In this document: piece after piece, positions 27,110-36,229 of the stretch | How positions within the stretch are numbered: the stretch's first letter is position 1 | How the letters are laid out: each line of letters opens with the position of its first letter | Source: Methyloceanibacter stevinii | GTDB taxonomy: Bacteria; Pseudomonadota; Alphaproteobacteria; Rhizobiales; Methyloligellaceae | Direction of reading: 5' to 3' | Assembly: GCF_001723355.1 (NCBI RefSeq) | Contig: NZ_LPWE01000011.1 | Span: forward strand, 508,968 to 572,967 | Length of the DNA stretch: 64,000 nucleotides | The notes under the pieces: generated by a model | What the model saw: only the letters and a program-made list of their open reading frames with translations | What the model was told of the DNA's origin: nothing | The model's database searches: none | Program-made: the position numbers and the translations under genes

Positions 27110-27769
27110 CTATCGGAAACCGCATCTGCCGCTCCGGCAATTCGCGAAGCCGTCAGAAGCGGGCGCGTGAAGCTGGGCGCGATCTTCCCGCTGCGCGGCA
27201 CAACCGGCGCACAGAAGGACGAGATCGCGCGCATAGGCATGGTCCTCTTGCCGGCCGGCGCCTGGTGCGGTCAGAAACACCTCGATGCCGACATAGAGAA
27301 AACGCGGATTGCGCCAGACGATCTCGGGAATGTAGGTCCACACGACAGGACGCAATTCCTGTTCCGACGGTGCACGAGACCCGTTTGTTTCGTGCGACAC
27401 GATCTTGAGCCGCCGTATATCCGCATCCTCTGACGCGGAACCATGCGCACGGTTTGCCAGCGCGTGGTCCAGGCAACTCAAGAAGTCTTCGCTGTGACAA
27501 TAGATATCGGCACACCGGCCGCTCTCGTTGAGACCCGTATGGATATCGATCACAGGCCCGGTTCGCCGGTGCAGTTGCTGGAGAACCTGCTGGTACATCT
27601 CGGCATGGCGAATGCGGTATTGGAATTCATCGTCCGGCGTGGGATTGGCGTTCTCCAGCCCCTTGTCCACGCGGAGCACGTCGCAGCGGTCCCCGAGAAG
27701 CCCGGCCAGGCGATCTCCGAAGGCGAGTTCGTCCCTATGAACGCCGATCAGGAGAAGCGGTTTTTCCAT
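27110..27769 (-). CDS. Putative zinc amidohydrolase/carboxypeptidase-like protein (M14/AstE superfamily)
   Basis: About 219 residues. GVHRDE near the N-terminus and VIDIHTG about 65 residues on match the HxxE...H zinc-ligand spacing of the aspartoacylase/succinylglutamate desuccinylase branch of M14 peptidases. The C-terminal 40 residues are Arg/Ala/Cys-rich and less family-like. ATG 27769 follows GGAG and is preferred to ATG 27778. The gene overlaps feoC by 35-44 bp, so it is expressed with the feo operon; a link to iron, for example cleaving a chelate or an acylated amino acid, is only suggested by position. Confidence 0.5.
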   Translation of the reverse strand: MEKPLLLIGVHRDELAFGDRLAGLLGDRCDVLRVDKGLENANPTPDDEFQYRIRHAEMYQQVLQQLHRRTGPVIDIHTGLNESGRCADIYCHSEDFLSCLDHALANRAHGSASEDADIRRLKIVSHETNGSRAPSEQELRPVVWTYIPEIVWRNPRFLYVGIEVFLTAPGAGRQEDHAYARDLVLLCAGCAAQREDRAQLHAPASDGFANCRSGRCGFR

Positions 27770-28010
27770 CGTCTCCATCGCCCAGCCACTCGTAGATCTC
27801 GAAAGACGTAGCGCAACAACTGCCGCAGGTGCCGCCCGTCGAGCATTTGTTGCAGCTGCATCCGAACTCGAGACGCTTCACCTTGCCCTTGCGGATCCAA
27901 TGATCGAGCATGCCCCGCAAAGCGTCCGGCTCTACGCTGTAATGTGTCGAGAGGTCCCCAATGCTGGCGGGGCTATGGGTCTCGAGGTAGTTCTTCAGAT
28001 CAAGCAGCAT
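27735..28010 (-). CDS. feoC: FeoC-like ferrous-iron transport regulator
   Basis: Small 91-residue protein: winged helix (MLLDLKNYLETHSPASIGDLSTHYSVEPDALRGMLDHWIRKGKVKRL), as in FeoC, followed by a Cys-rich stretch GCSCNKCSTGGTCGSCC. Six Cys in 16 residues is more than the usual four of enterobacterial FeoC. The Cys region could hold an iron-sulfur cluster that reports on iron or oxygen and steadies FeoB. It lies 50 bp after feoB and overlaps the next gene. Confidence 0.85.
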   Translation of the reverse strand: MLLDLKNYLETHSPASIGDLSTHYSVEPDALRGMLDHWIRKGKVKRLEFGCSCNKCSTGGTCGSCCATSFEIYEWLGDGDDGKTASPDRRS

Positions 28011-28060: not shown

Positions 28061-30391
28061 TCACGCACCCCGGAGTGCGGGGAGGCGGTGATTTTCGTGG
28101 GTGCCGTAATAACGCATGCCAAGAAACGCCGCGACAAAGAGCGCGAGTATTCCGCCGATCCACCAAGCGGAAGACACTGGATCCTGCGAGAACGTCGCGG
28201 CCTGATAGAACAGCACAGCGACACCGTATGCGAGCGCGGTCGTCCACACGCTGACGAATATGGCCCAGACCGCGCCGATTTCGCGATAGACGGCGGCGGT
28301 AGCCGCGACGCAGGGCATATAGAGCAAGATGAAGAGCAGATAGGCGAAGGCGCCAACCTGGCCATTGAAGAGGCTCGCCATCGATCCGAAGATGCCGGCG
28401 CTTACCCCTTGCTCCTCCGCCGCGCTAGCCGGTGAGCTGACATCGCCGATGTCCATGCCAAGCGGATCCTGCGCCGTACCGAAGGCATCCCGAAGGTTCG
28501 GTCCGATGCTCTCGAATGCCGCTTGCAGGCCGCCCCAGAAGTTGAACGCGTCTTCGCCCTCCTCGGAGCCGGGCTCGGCGTCGTTCGCGGCCATGCTGGA
28601 GTAAAGCGTGTTGAGCGTGCCGACCACGACTTCCTTGGCGAGCAGGCCGGTGAAGATACCGACTGTCGCCGGCCAATTGTCTTCCTGGATGCCCATTGGT
28701 TCGAAGATGGGGACGAGTCCGCGGCCGATCTCGGACAGTACCGAGTCCTCCGAATCCTCGTGGCCGAAACTTCCGTCGGTTCCCCACGAGTTGAGGAAGG
28801 CGATCACGACGACCATGGCGACGATCACCTTGCCCGCGCGCAGAATAAAACTCTGCAACCGGTCCCAGGTGCGCAGCATGATGCCTTTGAAGGTCGGCAT
28901 GTGATAGGGCGGCAGCTCCATCACGAAGGGAGAGGTCTCACCGCGCAGCAGCGTGTGCTTGAGCATCAGCCCGGTGAACACCGCGGCGAGAATGCCGATC
29001 AGATAGAGCGCGAAGACGAGGTTCTGCCCGCCGACTGGAAAGAACGCCGCCGCGAAGAGGGCATAGACCGGAAGCTTGGCGCCGCACGACATGAACGGCG
29101 CCATCATGATGGTCATGGTGCGGTCGCGCTGATTTTCCAGCGTCCGGGCGGCCATGATCGCCGGCACGTTGCAGCCGAATCCGACAATCAGCGGAACGAA
29201 GGATTTGCCGGGCAGGCCGATCATGCGCATGAGCCGGTCCATGACGAACGCGGCACGCGCCATGTAACCGGAGTCCTCTAAGAGCGAAAGGAAGAGGAAT
29301 AGGCATGCGATGATCGGGATGAAAGTCGCGACGGTCTGGATGCCGCCGCCGACGCCCGTGGCGAGCAGGGTCACGACCCAGTCGGGGCTGCCAATGCTCT
29401 CAAGGAGATGGCCGAACCCGTCGACGAAGATGGTGCCTGCGGCAATATCGAAGAAGTCGATGAATGCGCCGCCGATGTTGATGGTGAACATGAACATCGC
29501 ATACATGATGATTAGGAAGATCGGGATGCCCAGCGTCCGGTTGAGGATGACGCGGTCGATGCTGTCGGACACGGTTTTGTTCAATTGCGTGGTCCGGCGC
29601 ACGGATTTCTGTGTCAGGCCGTTGACGAAGTCGTAGCGTCCGCTGGCGATGAGCGTGTCGGCATCGACGCCGAGGTCCGCCTCGATCTTGTCCCTTTGGC
29701 GCGCAGCGATCCTCTCCGCTTCCGAATCGAGGGTGCCCGACGCGCTTTCGTCGCCCTCCAGAAGCTTGACGGCGAGCCAGCGGGACGATCCGCTCGTTGC
29801 TGTCTCGGTGATGTGCGGGAGGAGTTCGGCGAGGGCCGCTTCGACCTCCGGCCCATAGGTGGGCGTTTCCCGAACCGGTTGCGCCTCGCTCGCGGCACGG
29901 ACGATCTCGGCCTTGAGGTCATCGACCCCCTTTTCGGCCGAAGCGACAATCGGGATGACCGGACAGCCCAGCCGCTTGGACAATTCATCGATATTGATCT
30001 CCAAGTGCCGCGACTTGGCGATATCGACCATGTTGAGCGCCACCACGATTGGGGCGCCCATTTCCAGCAACTGGGTGGTGAGATAGAGATTCCGCTCGAT
30101 GTTCGAGGCGTCGATGATGTTGACGATCAAGTTCGCGCCACCCTCGACGACGTAGTCGCGCGCAACGCGTTCGTCGAGAGAGACGGACCCGCCTGCGCCG
30201 TCGAGCGAGTAGACGCCGGGCAAGTCGACGACCTCAATTCGCTGTCCGCGATAGGCAAAGCCCCCGACCTTCTTCTCGACGGTCACGCCCGGCCAGTTTC
30301 CGACGCGCTGTTGCGTGCCGGTCATCGCATTGAAGAGCGTGGTCTTGCCGCAGTTCGGATTGCCAACGATGGCAATGCTCACCTCATCCAT
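28061..30391 (-). CDS. feoB: Ferrous iron transporter FeoB
   Basis: Inner-membrane Fe(II) transporter of 776 residues. The N-terminal G-domain has GNPNCGKTTLFNAMTG (10-25), DLPGVYSL, NMVD and the helical GDI region; two Gate motifs follow in the membrane part (GFGCNVPAIMAARTLE and FMSCGAKLPVYALFAA). Full length and intact. Its ATG overlaps the feoA stop (TAATG at 30391). Gene order feoA-feoA-feoB-feoC. Confidence 0.97.
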   Translation of the reverse strand: MDEVSIAIVGNPNCGKTTLFNAMTGTQQRVGNWPGVTVEKKVGGFAYRGQRIEVVDLPGVYSLDGAGGSVSLDERVARDYVVEGGANLIVNIIDASNIERNLYLTTQLLEMGAPIVVALNMVDIAKSRHLEINIDELSKRLGCPVIPIVASAEKGVDDLKAEIVRAASEAQPVRETPTYGPEVEAALAELLPHITETATSGSSRWLAVKLLEGDESASGTLDSEAERIAARQRDKIEADLGVDADTLIASGRYDFVNGLTQKSVRRTTQLNKTVSDSIDRVILNRTLGIPIFLIIMYAMFMFTINIGGAFIDFFDIAAGTIFVDGFGHLLESIGSPDWVVTLLATGVGGGIQTVATFIPIIACLFLFLSLLEDSGYMARAAFVMDRLMRMIGLPGKSFVPLIVGFGCNVPAIMAARTLENQRDRTMTIMMAPFMSCGAKLPVYALFAAAFFPVGGQNLVFALYLIGILAAVFTGLMLKHTLLRGETSPFVMELPPYHMPTFKGIMLRTWDRLQSFILRAGKVIVAMVVVIAFLNSWGTDGSFGHEDSEDSVLSEIGRGLVPIFEPMGIQEDNWPATVGIFTGLLAKEVVVGTLNTLYSSMAANDAEPGSEEGEDAFNFWGGLQAAFESIGPNLRDAFGTAQDPLGMDIGDVSSPASAAEEQGVSAGIFGSMASLFNGQVGAFAYLLFILLYMPCVAATAAVYREIGAVWAIFVSVWTTALAYGVAVLFYQAATFSQDPVSSAWWIGGILALFVAAFLGMRYYGTHENHRLPALRGA

Positions 30392-30627
30392 TAAACGATC
30401 CTCTCGATCTTCAATGCGTCCGCTTCGTGCTTGCGCAGGCTGAGCGAGAAACCGCGCACCTTGATCTCGACGGGATCACCGAGCGGGGCCACGCGGACAA
30501 CGCTGATCTCGGTGCCGGGCGTGAGACCCATGGCGAGTAGCTTCTGCCGGTAATGTTGTGCGCCCTCGTTGAAACCGATCACCGAAGCCCGGTCTCCCAC
30601 GGACAGGCCGCGAAGCCCTTCATCCAT
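30391..30627 (-). CDS. feoA: FeoA-type SH3-like protein
   Basis: SH3-fold partner of FeoB (78 residues from ATG 30627). GDRASVIGFNEG, KLLAMGLTPGTEISVVRVAPLGDPVEIKVRGFSLSLRKHEA match FeoA closely. ATG 30627 has AGG(TGAAGGA) in front; ATG 30648 overlaps the previous gene. It overlaps feoB by one base. Confidence 0.95.
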   Translation of the reverse strand: MDEGLRGLSVGDRASVIGFNEGAQHYRQKLLAMGLTPGTEISVVRVAPLGDPVEIKVRGFSLSLRKHEADALKIERIV

Positions 30628-30631
30628 TCCT

Positions 30632-30934
30632 TCACCTCGTTTCGACATCGCTGACAGGCACGACCAGGATTTTTCTTGTCACGCCGACTCCCAGCGCCAA
30701 CCGAAGATCTCCGAGGGCAACCACCATTCGCCCGTCCGTCTGACGCTGGGTGACGGTCAGTTCCTTGCCGACGACAATTCCGAGATCGAACAATCGACGT
30801 TGATCATTCTGATCGCCCGATACGGCGACGACTTTGACCCGCTCATCAGTGCCGGCCATTGCCAGCGGTAGTCCCCCTGCACTCATAGTCTCGGCACCAA
30901 GCGATCCATCATCGTCCCAAGCATTGACACGCAA
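30632..30934 (-). CDS. Second FeoA-type protein, first gene of the feo operon
   Basis: 100 residues; an SH3-like FeoA domain (VKVVAVSGDQNDQRRLFDLGIVVGKELTVTQRQTDGRMVVALGDLRLALGVGVTRKILV) after a 30-residue leader without family features. The start is uncertain: the call is a TTG with weak GGGGCGG; Met codons at 30886 and 30859 would remove the leader. Two FeoA-like proteins next to one FeoB is known in some proteobacteria. The stop is 4 bp before the second feoA. Confidence 0.85.
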   Translation of the reverse strand: MRVNAWDDDGSLGAETMSAGGLPLAMAGTDERVKVVAVSGDQNDQRRLFDLGIVVGKELTVTQRQTDGRMVVALGDLRLALGVGVTRKILVVPVSDVETR

Positions 30935-30956: not shown

Positions 30957-30969
30957 GACTAAATAAGTC
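30957..30969. promoter_or_regulatory. Dyad in the feo/ferrosome-like divergent promoter region
   Basis: GACT-AAATA-AGTC lies in an A+T-rich stretch of the 150-bp gap between the feo operon and the divergent membrane-protein cluster, 23 bp upstream of the feo start. It is a plausible site for an iron regulator (Fur, Irr, RirA or the Rrf2 protein), but it does not exactly match a consensus I can state. Confidence 0.35.
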
Positions 30970-31084
30970 ATATTTTTTGTCCCTATAAACTGATCCCGGT
31001 CAGGGCTCGGATGTGCAAGGGGACAATATCCTGCCAAAGAGGCGTGCCGTTGCACGGTAACAACAGCGAGTGAGTGATCGACGC

Positions 31085-31684
31085 ATGAGTAACGAGACCG
31101 GTCCCGGCGGAGAGAACCGGATGGGCGGGCAACCGAGCGGTCAATTCGGAGGCGATAGCGGCGAATCCGAGGAAAATGGGATGCATGCGGAAGGCGCGCT
31201 TCCGTTCGGTTGGTACTATTTCGGACCCGAGCCCCCAACCTTTCAGCCTCCCGGCAATCCTGGCTACGGACCTGGCGGCGCACCCGGAACCATGCATGGT
31301 GCGTCGTTTGGTCCCGCGGGCGATCCTTACGGTGCCGCACCTGGCGCGCACGGTGGCGACGCATACGAGAAGCACGACAAGAGTGCCGCTTACATGGACG
31401 CGTTCGACCGGTTGTCGCGCGGACATGTCGACGCCCAGACGATCGGCAAGCTTCTCTCGCTCGATGACGAAGAGTTCTGGAAGGGCGCCCTCGTCGGTGC
31501 AGGCGCGGCGCTTCTCGCGACGAACTTGCCCGCTCTCAAGACCATGCTTGCCGGAGCCTTTGCAGGCGGCGGTGCGGCTAAGGGCGGCGAGAGCAAGAGT
31601 GGCGACACAGATGCTGCGAAGCATGCGTCCGAAGCGGACGTCCGCGGCGGATCATATGCCGACGACAAGGAGACGAAAGAGTGA
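31085..31684 (+). CDS. Gly/Pro-rich membrane-associated protein of the ferrosome-like cluster
   Basis: 199 residues. The first half is hydrophilic and rich in Gly, Pro, Tyr and Glu (GGENRMGGQPSGQFGG, FGPEPPTFQPPGNPGYG); the second has an acidic helix (DAFDRLSRGHVDAQTIGKLLSLDDEEFWKGA) and one hydrophobic segment (VGAGAALLATNLPALKTMLAGAFAGG), then a charged tail. ATG 31085 is preferred over 31070. I do not recognise the family. Its stop overlaps the next start (GTGA), and it heads the cluster containing the P-type ATPase, so it is probably an accessory of that system. Confidence 0.65.
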   Translation: MSNETGPGGENRMGGQPSGQFGGDSGESEENGMHAEGALPFGWYYFGPEPPTFQPPGNPGYGPGGAPGTMHGASFGPAGDPYGAAPGAHGGDAYEKHDKSAAYMDAFDRLSRGHVDAQTIGKLLSLDDEEFWKGALVGAGAALLATNLPALKTMLAGAFAGGGAAKGGESKSGDTDAAKHASEADVRGGSYADDKETKE

Positions 31685-32034
31685 CCTATTCCAATGACGT
31701 TCAGAGCTACGGCTATGCTGCGCCCATGCTGCCGGCCGGTCCCTATCTGCTGCGCACGGGTGCCACCGGCGCCATGATCGCGGGCGGTTGGGCCGCGGTG
31801 ACAGATCTTCGCCGCATGCGCGAGGGTGAGATTTCCCGCGACGAGGCCATCAAGCACACGGTCACCAACGCAGCGATCGGCGCCGGTGCGGGCGTGCTTG
31901 TCGGCACGGCAGCACATCTTGCGCGCAACCATCCGCTGGCAGGTGTCGCCGTGGTGCTGGCTGCCGGCGCCGGAGCGCTCTACCTGGCTGGCCAGGAGAA
32001 GTCGGAAGGACCCACGGGCGAGACGGGCAACTAG
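31681..32034 (+). CDS. Small two-helix membrane protein of the ferrosome-like cluster
   Basis: 117 residues from GTG 31681. Two Gly/Ala-rich hydrophobic segments (LLRTGATGAMIAGGWAAVTDL and AAIGAGAGVLVGTAAHLA...GVAVVLAAGAGALYLAG) are separated by a charged helix (RRMREGEISRDEAIKHT). The glycine-rich hairpin recalls small organelle-shaping membrane proteins such as those of magnetosomes, but no homology is claimed. Coupled to the previous gene by a 4-bp overlap. Confidence 0.65.
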   Translation: MTYSNDVQSYGYAAPMLPAGPYLLRTGATGAMIAGGWAAVTDLRRMREGEISRDEAIKHTVTNAAIGAGAGVLVGTAAHLARNHPLAGVAVVLAAGAGALYLAGQEKSEGPTGETGN

Positions 32035-32122
32035 CACCGCGCTCCAATACCAATCCCCTTCGGCCCGAGACGGACTCGGGCCAGGACGCCGTCAATGAAG
32101 ACGCAATCACAAGGAAGTCTCG

Positions 32123-32527
32123 ATGAGTCCTCACCCCCACATGTATCAGATGTATCCCGGTAACCCGAACGGCGGCCCGCAAGGCGAAGGCCAGGGTTAT
32201 GCTCAAGGCTATGGCAATGGTCCGCATTGGCATCGGCACGCGCACCCTTACGGTCCGGGCCACGCGGCAGGCTACGGCCCGGCGGCGCCCGGCCAAGCCC
32301 CGTCCCAGTTCCCGGCTCCGGGGGCGCTCGGCCTGCTCAACAATCGGTTTGTCACCGGCATGCTCGTAGGCAGTGCACTGACCTATGTCCTGACCAACGA
32401 GCACATTCAGCGCGCGGCCATTCGCGGTGTCACGCAAATCTGGCTCGGCATCCAGGGCGGCCTCGAGGAGACGAAAGAGCGCTTCCGCGACGCGGAGTCC
32501 GAGATCAAGACCCATCACGGGCAATAG
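32123..32527 (+). CDS. His/Gly/Tyr-rich membrane protein of the ferrosome-like cluster
   Basis: 134 residues. The first 60 are low-complexity with many His, Tyr, Gly and Pro (GPHWHRHAHPYGPGHAAGYG), a possible metal-binding surface. One hydrophobic segment (FVTGMLVGSALTYVLTNE) is followed by an amphipathic charged helix (LEETKERFRDAESEIK), an arrangement like YtxH-type proteins. A good AAGGAAG ribosome site precedes the ATG. It ends 12 bp before the ATPase gene. Confidence 0.65.
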   Translation: MSPHPHMYQMYPGNPNGGPQGEGQGYAQGYGNGPHWHRHAHPYGPGHAAGYGPAAPGQAPSQFPAPGALGLLNNRFVTGMLVGSALTYVLTNEHIQRAAIRGVTQIWLGIQGGLEETKERFRDAESEIKTHHGQ

Positions 32528-32539
32528 CGCGGTTGTCTC

Positions 32540-34792
32540 ATGCCTCTTGAAGCTTCCGCATTGTCCAGCGGCGACAACGTACAGCCGCTTCACCAGCGGC
32601 GAAACACCGTCGTGGTTGCGCACGCGTCGCCCAAGAGACTGCGTCTCAAGCTGCCGTTGCTGCGGCAGCCGCGGCTGGATGTGGGCCATCTGACGAGCCA
32701 CATCTCCGAGTTCGACGGCGTCGAGTCGGTGCGCATCAATGCGGCCGCCTCCTCCGTCGTCATCGGTCACGACGGAGAGGCAGCAACCCGGTCGGCGATC
32801 GTCCACCGGCTCGAGACGCTGTCGCACGACACGCTTCGATTTCTCAACGGCGACAGCGAACCGAGTATTACCCCGCTTGCGCTGCGCGCCGCGCTGCTTC
32901 TGGCTCTTCCCGTACTGCCGGCCACGCTCGGCAAGGCCCTTGTCTGGGGTGCAATCGCGCCGCGTGTTTTGCGGGGCGTCTGGTCGTTGTTCGCGAAGGG
33001 TGTGTCGGTCGAGGTGCTCGACGCCACGGCCATCTCGCTCGGCGCCGCGCAGGGGCGAACTGGTACGGCCCTTCTCACCGACGAACTCATGGCGACCGGC
33101 GACTATCTCGAGGAGACCACCGAACGCCATTCCGAGGATCTGCTGTCACATCTGCTCTACCCGCATCCGGCGTCCGTTTGGATTGTACGGGACGAAGAGG
33201 TGGTGAAGGTTCCATTCTCCGACGTGCACACGGGCGACATCGTCGTGGTGGGGGCAGGGGAGCTGATCCCTGTCGACGGTGTGGTTCACGACGGCGTGGC
33301 GCAGGTCAACCAGGCCTCCGTGACGGGCGAGAGCGTTCCCGTCGGCAAGGAGACCGGCGATCAGGTCATCGCCGGCAGCGTCGTCGAGAACGGACACATC
33401 AGGATCGAGGCGCACCATGTGGGCGACGAAACGACCACGGCGCGCATCGCCGCCTTCATTCATGAGTCCCTGACCGCGAAATCAGATACCGAGCGGGTCG
33501 CGGAGGACTTCGCCAACCAGCGTGTCCTGACGACACTCGGACTTGGCCTGGCGACGTTCCTGCTGACAGGGGACATCACGCGTGTGATGTCGGTCCTGCT
33601 GATCGACTATTCCTGCGCGGTCAAGCTGAGCGCGCCGGTGGCGATCCGATCGATGATGTCGGAGGCTGCAAACAGGGGCGTTCTGATCAAGGGCGGCCCG
33701 AGCATCGAGGCGCTGTCGAAGGTGGACACGGTGGTGTTCGACAAGACGGGGACGCTGACGCGCGGCGATCTCGCTATTACCGACATCGTCCCGTTGATGC
33801 CGGAGCTTCTGTCCGAGGAGCGGCTGCTGGCCATGGCCGCATCCATCGAAGAGCATTCGCGCCATCCGGTGGCGGCAGCCATCGTGCAGGCGGCGCGCGA
33901 GCGCGGCACCGACCATGTCGCCCATGAAGATATCGACGTCGAGATCGCCCATGGGCTGAGGACGCGCGTGGACGGCCAGGAAGTGCTGATCGGTAGCCGG
34001 CACTTTCTGCAGGACCACGAGAACATCGATCTGCGCGCGCATGAGGATGCCGCGCGGGCGCTTTCCGCCGAGGGCAAGATGCTGCTCTACGTCGCCTTCG
34101 GCGGCCAGGCTGTTGGGCTCATCGCGCTCCGTGACGAATTGAGAGCCGAGTCCGCCGACACGGTGAAGCGCTTGCGTGCCGCCGGCGTCGAGCGGCTGAT
34201 CATGCTGACCGGCGACCGCAAGGAGCGTGCCGAGGCGCTTGCTGCCTCGCTCGGCCTTGATGCGGTCTTTGCCGAGCTCCAGCCCGAGGACAAGGCGGAG
34301 ATCGTGCAGAAGCTCCGCGACGACGGACATCACACGGCCTTCGTGGGAGACGGCATCAACGACGCGCCGGCCTTGGCCACGGCCGATGTCGGCATCGCCA
34401 TGCCGCGCGGTGCCGATATCGCGCGGGCGACCGCCGACATCGTGCTGCTTCAGGACTGCCTTGACGGGGTGGCGGATGCGCGGGAAGCCTCGCAGACTGC
34501 CATGGACATCATCCGCAGCAATTTCCGCGCGGCGATCGGCGTCAATACGGGGCTCTACGTGGTGGCCTCGATTGGCTGGCTCGGTCCGGTCGCGGCCGCG
34601 ACGCTGCATAACGGGACGACGCTGGGCTTGCTGGCGCGTGCGCTGTCGGCCAGCCGTTTCCCGGACAGTGCGAGCGAAGAGCCTCGGGACATAACGCCGG
34701 TGGACGAAGCGCCGCAAGACAAAGTGCTGGTCGACGAAGCCTCTGGGGCCGTCGCCGGTGACAATCACAATGCCGCCCCGACGATCCACTAA
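32540..34792 (+). CDS. P1B-type ATPase with SC motif, ferrosome FezB-like
   Basis: Metal-moving P-type ATPase, 750 residues. The N-terminal HMA2-like domain (about 30-90) has no CxxC and begins with PKRLRLKLP. Seen: actuator TGES (SVTGESVPVGK), transmembrane metal motif DYSC359AVKLSAP instead of CPC, phosphorylation site D401KTGTLTRG, SRHPVAAAIV (HP motif), and hinge GDGINDAPALATADVGIAM. This subgroup, with SC for CPx and an HMA2 head, is the kind called P1B-6 in ferrosome loci, where FezB fills membrane-bound iron granules. The acidic C-terminal tail is unusual. Neighbouring small membrane proteins, an HMA2 partner and a divergent feo operon support an iron role; zinc or manganese export is the alternative. 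Confidence 0.85.
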   Translation: MPLEASALSSGDNVQPLHQRRNTVVVAHASPKRLRLKLPLLRQPRLDVGHLTSHISEFDGVESVRINAAASSVVIGHDGEAATRSAIVHRLETLSHDTLRFLNGDSEPSITPLALRAALLLALPVLPATLGKALVWGAIAPRVLRGVWSLFAKGVSVEVLDATAISLGAAQGRTGTALLTDELMATGDYLEETTERHSEDLLSHLLYPHPASVWIVRDEEVVKVPFSDVHTGDIVVVGAGELIPVDGVVHDGVAQVNQASVTGESVPVGKETGDQVIAGSVVENGHIRIEAHHVGDETTTARIAAFIHESLTAKSDTERVAEDFANQRVLTTLGLGLATFLLTGDITRVMSVLLIDYSCAVKLSAPVAIRSMMSEAANRGVLIKGGPSIEALSKVDTVVFDKTGTLTRGDLAITDIVPLMPELLSEERLLAMAASIEEHSRHPVAAAIVQAARERGTDHVAHEDIDVEIAHGLRTRVDGQEVLIGSRHFLQDHENIDLRAHEDAARALSAEGKMLLYVAFGGQAVGLIALRDELRAESADTVKRLRAAGVERLIMLTGDRKERAEALAASLGLDAVFAELQPEDKAEIVQKLRDDGHHTAFVGDGINDAPALATADVGIAMPRGADIARATADIVLLQDCLDGVADAREASQTAMDIIRSNFRAAIGVNTGLYVVASIGWLGPVAAATLHNGTTLGLLARALSASRFPDSASEEPRDITPVDEAPQDKVLVDEASGAVAGDNHNAAPTIH

Positions 34793-34874
34793 GACGGGGC
34801 GTGCAAAGTCGTGACGAACCTGTCAATCTCGGTAGGTAGGATCGTACCTAGCCGCGGCGGGTGAGGAGGATCAT

Positions 34875-35291
34875 ATGGTCTATTGCGTTCATCACGTCCC
34901 CGGGCGTGCGCGCTTCAAGGTTCCGCGGATCAAGCAAGATCGTGCCTTCGCGGAGGAACTTGAGAGCAAGATTCTGAGCCTTGAGGGCGTTCATCGCGTC
35001 GAGCTCAACCCTTCGGCGCATTCGGTGATCGTGCACTACGACATAGTCGTCAATCCATTGGGTGACGCGGTTTCGCATATGCATGGCGGCAAGCCGCCTA
35101 TCGACATGACGGGCGGTGATCCGGGTGTCATTCCGCTCAGCGCCAAGCCAAGCGCGGGGCCGATCGACAAGAAGGCTCACGAGGACATCTCGCGCGGTGT
35201 CGGCCAGATCGTCGGTCAGGCCGTGTTCGCCACGCTTGTGCAGCGGACGCTCGAACGCAGTCTGCTGTCGCTGCTCACCGGTCTGCGCTAA
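34875..35291 (+). CDS. HMA2-domain protein, ferrosome FezC-like partner
   Basis: 138 residues. The N-terminal ferredoxin-like HMA2 domain reads HHVPGRARFKVPRIKQD and VHRVELNPSAHSVIVHYD; it has no CxxC, like the ATPase head, with which it shares the pattern P-[GK]-R-x-R-x-K-x-P. The C-terminus has a conserved-looking amphipathic segment (VGQIVGQAVFATLVQRTLERSLLSLL) that could bind a membrane. It is 82 bp after the ATPase in the same direction. Likely helper of the ATPase; no enzyme activity expected. Confidence 0.7.
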   Translation: MVYCVHHVPGRARFKVPRIKQDRAFAEELESKILSLEGVHRVELNPSAHSVIVHYDIVVNPLGDAVSHMHGGKPPIDMTGGDPGVIPLSAKPSAGPIDKKAHEDISRGVGQIVGQAVFATLVQRTLERSLLSLLTGLR

Positions 35292-35300
35292 GGCGCCGCA

Positions 35301-36229
35301 TCAAGCGACGGCGTTGGCCAGTTCCTTTGTGGGCGTCTTGTCCGGCAAATCCGTCGGAACGTGCTTCAACAGCTCGAAATCGATGAGCGCATAGTCGAAC
35401 GTGCCGTCCCGCGCGACCAGTTCGATCCCGTTTCGGCGCGGACGCAGGATCAGATGGCGCGGCTTGTGATCCAGGACGACAAGGTCGTGGGCGCGCAGAT
35501 CCATGTTGGACCGATGGTAGAGCGCCTGCAGGTCCTCTGCCGTCAGGAAGCCGTCGGTATAGAGCTGGACCGCATCGAGCCCTTTGACCCACTGAAAGAA
35601 CAGGATGTAGTCGCGCTTCAGGTGGAGCGTTACGGGCACGTCGGTGCCGTTCTTTTCCTGGTCTGCCTTTAGCCGCGCGACGTGCTGCGCGAACAGACCC
35701 TCTTTGCGGCCGAGTTGCCAGACCTTGTATTCGCGCGGCGGACTGTAGATGGCGAGCGGCCGCTTCGTCTTGATGGGCGGGCGGTCCGGGCCGAACGGAC
35801 CGCGGCGCAGTTCCGTCAGCAACCCGAACTCCTCGAACGGATCGTTGAAACAGGCATTGTCGATGACAGACCGGGGGACGAGTTCCGCCACGGGCTTGTC
35901 CACGAAGATGGGAACGTCCTGCGCGACCCGCGAAAATTTGACGACGACGTCCTTCGTGGCGCCCACGGGAACAACGATCGGAACGCGGTACACGGTTCCC
36001 GTCCCATCGAGCTTCTGGCCCGTCTCTTGATAACGCTGATCGATGAACCAGGCCTTGGGCAGGGCGCGCTTGGAAAGCCCCCAGCCATAGCGGGTCAGAA
36101 ACAGTTCTCCGCCACCGAGGAGGCAGAGACGCGCATAGTCGACCCCGTAGCGCGCGCCTTGTACTCGGGGGGCAGGTCGTCAAAGGCCACGTGAAGCAGT
36201 TGGCACGTGGCATCGTCTAGAAGTGGCAT
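35301..36229 (-). CDS. Conserved protein of unknown function, kinase-like C-terminus, frame broken once
   Basis: Repaired length 309 residues. Blocks seen: LFLTRYGWGLSKRALPKAWF, GTVYRVPIVVPVGATKDVVVKFSRV, FNDPFEEFGLLTELR, KRPLAIYSPPREYKVWQLGR and LDHKPRHLILRPRR...YALIDFELL. The last block resembles a kinase catalytic/DFG arrangement and the VVVKFSRV strand could be the lysine strand, but this is a weak guess. The first 28 residues lie in another frame from 36229; one base missing near 36151 (GCGCTAC for GCGGCTAC) restores KARGYGVDYARLCLL. Convergent with the HMA2 gene. Confidence 0.5.

Follow-up and report, generated by a model that had tools for sequence, protein, structure and literature searches.

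A candidate ferrosome (fez-type) operon divergent from feo in Methyloceanibacter stevinii, encoding a protein distantly related to magnetosome MamC

Introduction

Ferrosomes are small sacs of membrane that hold iron in store. They are formed from six fez genes, RPA2333-2338, in Rhodopseudomonas palustris CGA009 (PMC12016538), whereas in Clostridioides difficile, as described in a review, they need the membrane protein FezA and the transporter FezB and are repressed by Fur (PMC12574912). FezC, which a preprint reports to be a cytochrome (PMC10979944), is not among the required C. difficile proteins named in the passages of the review drawn on here, and our likening of the genes below to FezA and FezB of that species follows the review's description only. 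The present study concerns five open reading frames (ORFs) on the plus strand at positions 31085-35291 of a 64,000-nucleotide stretch of Methyloceanibacter stevinii DNA (hereafter the window), part of one contig (NZ_LPWE01000011.1) of a 3.2 Mb genome. On the minus strand, divergent from these five genes, lies the iron import set feoA2-feoA1-feoB-feoC. A first-pass annotation of the sequence had proposed a candidate ferrosome locus at these positions, which needed no revision, and the cluster very probably works as a fez-type operon in Methyloceanibacter.

We favour this reading because of the motif and clade of the ATPase, the resemblance to a six-gene run in a presumptive R. palustris strain, the recurrence of the gene set in 80 loci, the presence of feo genes in 9 of these, a plasmid-borne copy in Cereibacter, purifying selection, and the relation of one small protein to MamC. 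Ferrosome operons are a kind of locus already known; what is new is the five-gene, feo-linked layout. Methyloceanibacter is named in none of the literature matches listed for iron storage.

Comparison with the ferrosome operon of R. palustris

The largest gene of the cluster (32540-34792, plus strand; 750 amino acids) encodes a FezB-type P1B ATPase with the usual parts of a P-type pump, namely the E1-E2 ATPase and hydrolase domains of Pfam and the DKTGT motif, together with LHNGTT near its end. The sequence DYSCAVKLSAP occupies the site of CPC in the sampled CPC pumps, and the protein has only two cysteines, Cys 359 (within DYSCAV) and Cys 640, so that its HMA2 head is Cys-free; the earlier description of SC replacing CPx below a Cys-free head is thus borne out. 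The head scores 28.3 bits with Pfam HMA_2, slightly below the cut-off of 30, and carries at residue 31 the only PxRxRxKxP motif of the ATPase (PKRLRLKLP). The same motif, as had been noticed, is shared by the HMA2 partner at the end of the cluster (34875-35291, plus strand; 138 amino acids; PF19991, 39.3 bits against a cut-off of 30), where it begins at residue 9 (PGRARFKVP) in a protein whose single Cys is residue 4. ATPases with S-C-A in place of CPx are presumably the class called P1B-6.

Among 391 genomes from a different family within the window's order, 22 gave an ATPase match (12 above 660 bits), and ten of these 22 neighbourhoods were examined. One of the genomes (G860), whose identity as R. 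palustris PS3 is inferred (presumptive PS3 below), carries a run of six genes, the ones examined at that locus, coding for an HMA2 protein with a cytochrome-like tail, a second HMA2 protein, a small sp-type protein, a MamC-related protein, an sp3-type protein and an SCA-type ATPase, which we interpret as the CGA009 ferrosome operon in its PS3 form. Profiles built on the window proteins gave 59.0 and 52.8 bits for the HMA2 and sp3 counterparts; the tail of the first gene was recognized by eye, its HMA2 profile score being 16.4 bits with no Pfam match. This run contains counterparts of the window gene families, two of them weak, and its ATPase falls in the same clade. The two loci differ in their HMA2 genes, of which presumptive PS3 has two, upstream, and the window one, downstream; in addition, long Gly/Pro-rich heads are absent from presumptive PS3, and feo genes adjoin the cluster in the window. 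The proposal that the cluster has the make-up of a fez locus is upheld by the clade of the ATPase, the HMA2 partner and the small-protein families recurring in the presumptive PS3 run (two weakly).

Three small proteins precede the ATPase. The first (sp1; 31085-31684, plus strand; 199 amino acids, 20% Gly), encoded by the first gene of the fez-type cluster, has a Gly/Pro-rich head and a short FWKGALVGAGAALLATN segment, and matched no Pfam or NCBIfam family at E-values up to 1. The third (sp3; 32123-32527, plus strand; 134 amino acids) has a Gly/Pro/His-rich head, a short segment and a charged tail (EETKERFRDAESE). Their profiles cross-match, and the two proteins form one Gly/Pro-rich family. 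Between them lies a 117-amino-acid protein (31681-32034, plus strand) of a different family, related to MamC, in which a simple hydropathy test flagged one membrane segment and which was the only one of the three in which any was flagged. The description of three small Gly-rich membrane proteins therefore stands for two related Gly/Pro-rich proteins, fails for the 117-amino-acid protein as to family, and is not borne out for sp1 and sp3 as to membrane segments. Downstream of the cluster, a convergent gene (35301-35993) codes for a 230-amino-acid protein with no Pfam match.

Conservation in close relatives

The full-length ATPase (>1100 bits) was found in 4 of 41 genomes, comprising the window genome and others of the same genus, family and order, several of them incomplete assemblies; the next-best match scored 295 bits. 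The four are the window genome, G014, G013 (same genus, taken as Methyloceanibacter methanicus) and G018 (same family, taken as Methyloligella sp. GL2). The order of the five genes and of the divergent feo genes is kept in all three relatives, although the sp1 match in Methyloligella covers 83 residues only. The ratio of nonsynonymous to synonymous substitution rates (dN/dS), calculated by a simple counting method for one pair, the window and M. methanicus, was 0.23 for sp1, 0.10 for the MamC-related gene, 0.20 for sp3, 0.14 for the ATPase and 0.11 for the HMA2 partner, against 0.07-0.15 for the feo genes. Each of the five cluster genes has an intact reading frame and evolves under purifying selection. 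Because the order is kept in three relatives and dN/dS lies at 0.10-0.23, the cluster is not a chance arrangement. In M. methanicus the match to feoB (L033:12598-14915) is split between two frames at about residues 67-69, owing either to a sequencing error or to a genuine interruption of the gene.

Recurrence of the gene set across bacteria

When 84,980 species were scanned with a stretch surrounding the SCA motif, the pattern was hit 406 times and 377 relatives were obtained, the nearest over the scanned stretch being M. methanicus (95%) and Methyloligella sp. GL2 (87%). Locus counts refer to the best 80 of these 377, in which ORFs were called and searched with profiles grown from the window proteins, the full 16 kb being available in 63 of the 80. 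The ATPase was called in 78 loci and a MamC-related protein in 76, and three of the four loci without the latter are short. At least one sp1/sp3-family protein was present in 79 of the 80 loci, two or more in 72, an HMA2 protein in 67 and a FezC-like protein in 9. HMA2-headed proteins with a FezC-like, cytochrome-like C-terminal tail were seen in L080, L097, L104, L109, L111 and L115 by profile and in L171 by eye.

The typical arrangement in Vibrio, Shewanella and Photobacterium consists of a divergent HMA2 gene followed by HMA2, sp1, mamC-related, sp3 and ATPase genes, so that the window's families recur and its central order (sp1-mamC-sp3-ATPase) is unchanged. It differs from the window in that the HMA2 genes lie upstream, one of them divergent, and in that no feo gene was present in the stretch examined. 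We take this cluster to be the ferrosome operon of Shewanella putrefaciens.

Feo genes were found in 9 of the 80 loci, belonging to M. methanicus, Methyloligella, Rhodobium orientis, Candidatus Thiosymbion and metagenome-assembled genomes of Methylocystaceae, Magnetovibrio, Chromatiales, Thiotrichales and Thiomargarita. Three of 12 plasmid hits were opened. In Cereibacter azotoformans a conjugative plasmid carries the genes in the order of the window, sp1-mamC-sp3-ATPase-HMA2; there the cluster is divergent from feoA and flanked by genes for TonB receptors, and the ATPase motif is ACP, not SCA. This locus (L142; NZ_CP089968.1, 146419-162359) also includes a sigma/FecR pair beside the fez-type cluster, feoA and TonB-dependent receptors, and it is possible that ferrosome-type storage travels here as a mobile iron package.

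The feo neighbourhood would also suit a detoxification pump, and the ATPase could in principle be a plasma-membrane exporter of excess Fe(II), with the small proteins as accessories and no organelle, storage being left to two ferritin-family genes of the genome. A lone pump, however, would need no conserved set of MamC-related (76/80 loci) and Gly/Pro-rich (79/80) proteins, and the presumptive PS3 counterpart sits in a six-gene run of the kind reported for the CGA009 ferrosome operon, which makes simple export unlikely. It is still less probable, to the point of being highly improbable, that the window holds a decaying fez-type cluster in a lineage that has lost organelle formation for want of the upstream HMA2 and cytochrome genes. 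Such decay would fit the count of five genes instead of six and the confinement of the full-length ATPase to 4 of the 41 related genomes, but against it stand five open genes under purifying selection, the identical five-gene order on the Cereibacter plasmid, and the profile model finding a FezC-like gene in only 9 of 80 loci.

Phylogeny of the ATPase

In a tree of 55 P-type ATPases (tree 1), the 34 rows with SCA-like motifs (SCA, ACA, SCG, ACG and ACP) lay on one side of a 100/100 branch, separate from the CPC, TPC, SPC and CPG rows, with a program warning that the TPC rows may falsely join the fez clade through long-branch attraction. A second tree of 49 rows (tree 2; 14 of the 55 rows removed and 8 added) placed the ATPases of the window, presumptive PS3, Shewanella and Vibrio in one 34-row clade, again at 100/100, one row of which has SCT and is missed by the motif rule. 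The window ATPase is grouped there most closely with those of M. methanicus, Methyloligella and Cereibacter, and not with that of PS3. Rows were picked by hand and drawn from 22 of the 80 scan loci, with the broken ATPase of L055 omitted; besides the cluster's own, the window genome has four P-type ATPases, of which tree 1 includes the one with a usable ORF and tree 2 none. The phylogenetic check proposed with the first-pass annotation thus groups the protein with SCA-type ATPases, including that of presumptive PS3, and apart from the sampled CPC, SPC, TPC, CPG and TG-type pumps. Two DYGTGIRVAAP ATPases, whose genomes also belong to the PS3 family, lie outside the clade in tree 2. In these genomes (L179, L180) they occur as an additional HMA2-headed P-type ATPase, with DYGTGIRVAAP instead of SCA, adjoining one HMA2 gene. 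ATPases of the window's kind (at least 632 bits) were present in 8 of 398 sampled Pseudomonadota genomes, the window included, and the ninth match was a CPG-type pump at 400 bits.

The family models of NCBIfam give a different signal, since the cadmium-family model TIGR01512 scores 391.4 bits on the ATPase (cut-off 313.5), although the copper model reaches 352.4 bits, below its cut-off of 397. One might accordingly suppose a pump for another metal (Zn, Cd, Mn, Cu or Co) whose likeness to iron genes is one of position only. We consider this very unlikely, as the protein has no CPx, SPC or TPC motif and belongs to a separate clade, and as 9 of the 80 loci include feo genes and the Cereibacter plasmid has feoA. 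A zinc, copper or TG-type exporter was discarded on motif and trees despite the TIGR01512 score.

Relation of the 117-amino-acid protein to MamC

The NCBIfam MamC model (NF038051) matched the window protein at E = 0.0011 (19.2 bits; the equivalog cut-off of 100 is not reached), and 40 of 44 family members at E-values up to 0.01, the best being 9.3e-12. These 44 are the window protein and 43 of 59 non-redundant members (92 found), some with overlong called starts being omitted. No other NCBIfam family was matched by more than one of the 44, and among 36 sp1/sp3 proteins used as a control, most of them from the same loci as the MamC-related members, none matched MamC. In the reverse direction, MamC of strain AMB-1 scored 50.5 bits with the fez profile, compared with 7.7 for the best of 2000 plain shuffles and 18.5 for the best of 2000 that preserve the pattern of hydrophobic residues; the query, taken as the AMB-1 sequence, scores 146.7 bits with the NCBIfam MamC model. 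By profile comparison, significant in both directions, the family is therefore distantly related to magnetosome MamC, and the view that the small proteins have little recognisable homology was only partly right.

The relation thins out in parts of the family. Of seven further members three match MamC, and the four from presumptive PS3, G818, Azospirillum and Cereibacter do not; for the R. palustris counterpart the relation comes from the fez-grown profile only (17.9 bits in presumptive PS3, 26.9 in G818). None of seven fez-bearing genomes had a protein above the NF038051 cut-off, and a search of solved structures with the family gave a best E-value of 0.23. Among ten window proteins scanned with NCBIfam the 117-amino-acid protein alone matched a magnetosome model, no search having been aimed at nearby mam genes. 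A search of 289 genomes of the class with the 117-amino-acid protein gave matches in six, of which four were weak (E about 3e-4 to 9e-4), had no other nearby fez gene by tblastn and were dropped as likely chance.

MamC is described as having two membrane helices and a loop toward the mineral and as affecting magnetite size in vitro (PMC6206293), and its deletion caused no crystal defect in one strain in the account drawn on here (PMC3905215). By eye, the window protein resembles MamC (Mms13) in having a charged loop flanked by two Gly/Ala-rich stretches. It differs in that one hydrophobic segment is flagged where MamC has two helices, and in that the two acidic loop residues described for MamC (PMC6206293), which we take as a Glu and an Asp four apart in AMB-1, correspond to Glu and His. 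In the literature mentioning both MamC and ferrosomes no relation is stated in the passages drawn on here, and Grant 2022 may state one. We suggest, tentatively and without favouring the idea over its contrary, that a mineral-handling membrane family is common to ferrosomes and magnetosomes, with MamC-related proteins standard in proteobacterial fez operons, that MamC was perhaps taken from ferrosomes (or the reverse), and that the window protein may steer the iron mineral of the ferrosome.

The feo genes and the presumed shared control region

The divergent feo genes, identified by Pfam, were as first described. They comprise, in order from the shared region, a second FeoA-domain protein (feoA2; 30632-30934, minus strand; PF04023, 48.4 bits), which starts at a TTG at 30934 or an ATG at 30886; feoA (feoA1; 30391-30648, minus strand; PF04023, 71.4 bits); the ferrous iron permease feoB (28061-30391, minus strand; TIGR00437, 655.3 bits); and feoC (27735-28010, minus strand; PF09012, 73.8 bits). 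The second FeoA-domain protein ahead of feoA-feoB is present in all three relatives too. The control region, put at 150 bp in the first-pass annotation, has that length if feoA2 starts at the TTG, but measures about 198 bp with the ATG.

Between feoA2 and sp1 lies an AT-rich partial palindrome of 25 bases, GACTAAATAAGTCATATTTTTTGTC (30957-30981, no strand), a possible shared operator. When the intergenic regions are aligned, it is conserved between the window, G014 and M. methanicus, is looser in Methyloligella and was not seen in Cereibacter; the genome holds one copy at up to 3 mismatches. The palindrome is no more Fur-box-like than shuffles, and a sigma-70 promoter scan found none.

Points against a ferrosome operon, and a possible mechanism

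Several observations weigh against a ferrosome operon. To our knowledge, ferrosomes have been proved in other species only. The cluster has five genes, not six, and no FezC-like gene was found in it or in the genome with a six-row profile that had no positive control; DUF4405 matches lie outside the cluster, one of 39.6 bits in a 269-amino-acid frame of the window's contig at a distance of about 187 kb, and a second, below the cut-off, on another contig. The window ATPase is about 42% identical to that of presumptive PS3, where the small sp-type (17.3 bits) and MamC-related (17.9 bits) matches are weak, and it scores above the cadmium-family cut-off as given above. In 71 of the 80 loci no feo gene was present in the stretch examined, and a Fur-box scan of the shared region did no better than shuffles (the best score was reached by 23.5% of 200). 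Finally, the two ferritin-family genes could store iron instead; ferrosomes would therefore be one of several iron stores.

Taking the cluster as a ferrosome operon, we infer a mechanism in which iron is the cargo and each small protein has a part. The SCA-type ATPase would move Fe(II) from the cytoplasm into vesicles derived from the inner membrane. The HMA2 domains of its head and of the partner have no CxxC metal site and bear the basic PxRxRxKxP strip; their role may be to dock the pump, to regulate it, or to bind phosphate or anionic lipid. A coat for the vesicle, or its shape, may be provided by sp1 and sp3, the two Gly/Pro-rich proteins. The MamC-related protein would sit in the vesicle membrane and influence iron mineral formation. 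One control region facing feoABC would set storage jointly with import.

Implications

A fez-type operon in the window would add a methylotroph genus to the bacteria with ferrosome-type iron storage, and its neighbourhood, in tying storage to ferrous import, lends sequence support to iron as the cargo of this class of ATPase. If the relation to MamC reflects shared function, two lipid-bound iron organelles of bacteria would be joined in a way that can be tested, and mineral control could be studied outside magnetotactic bacteria.

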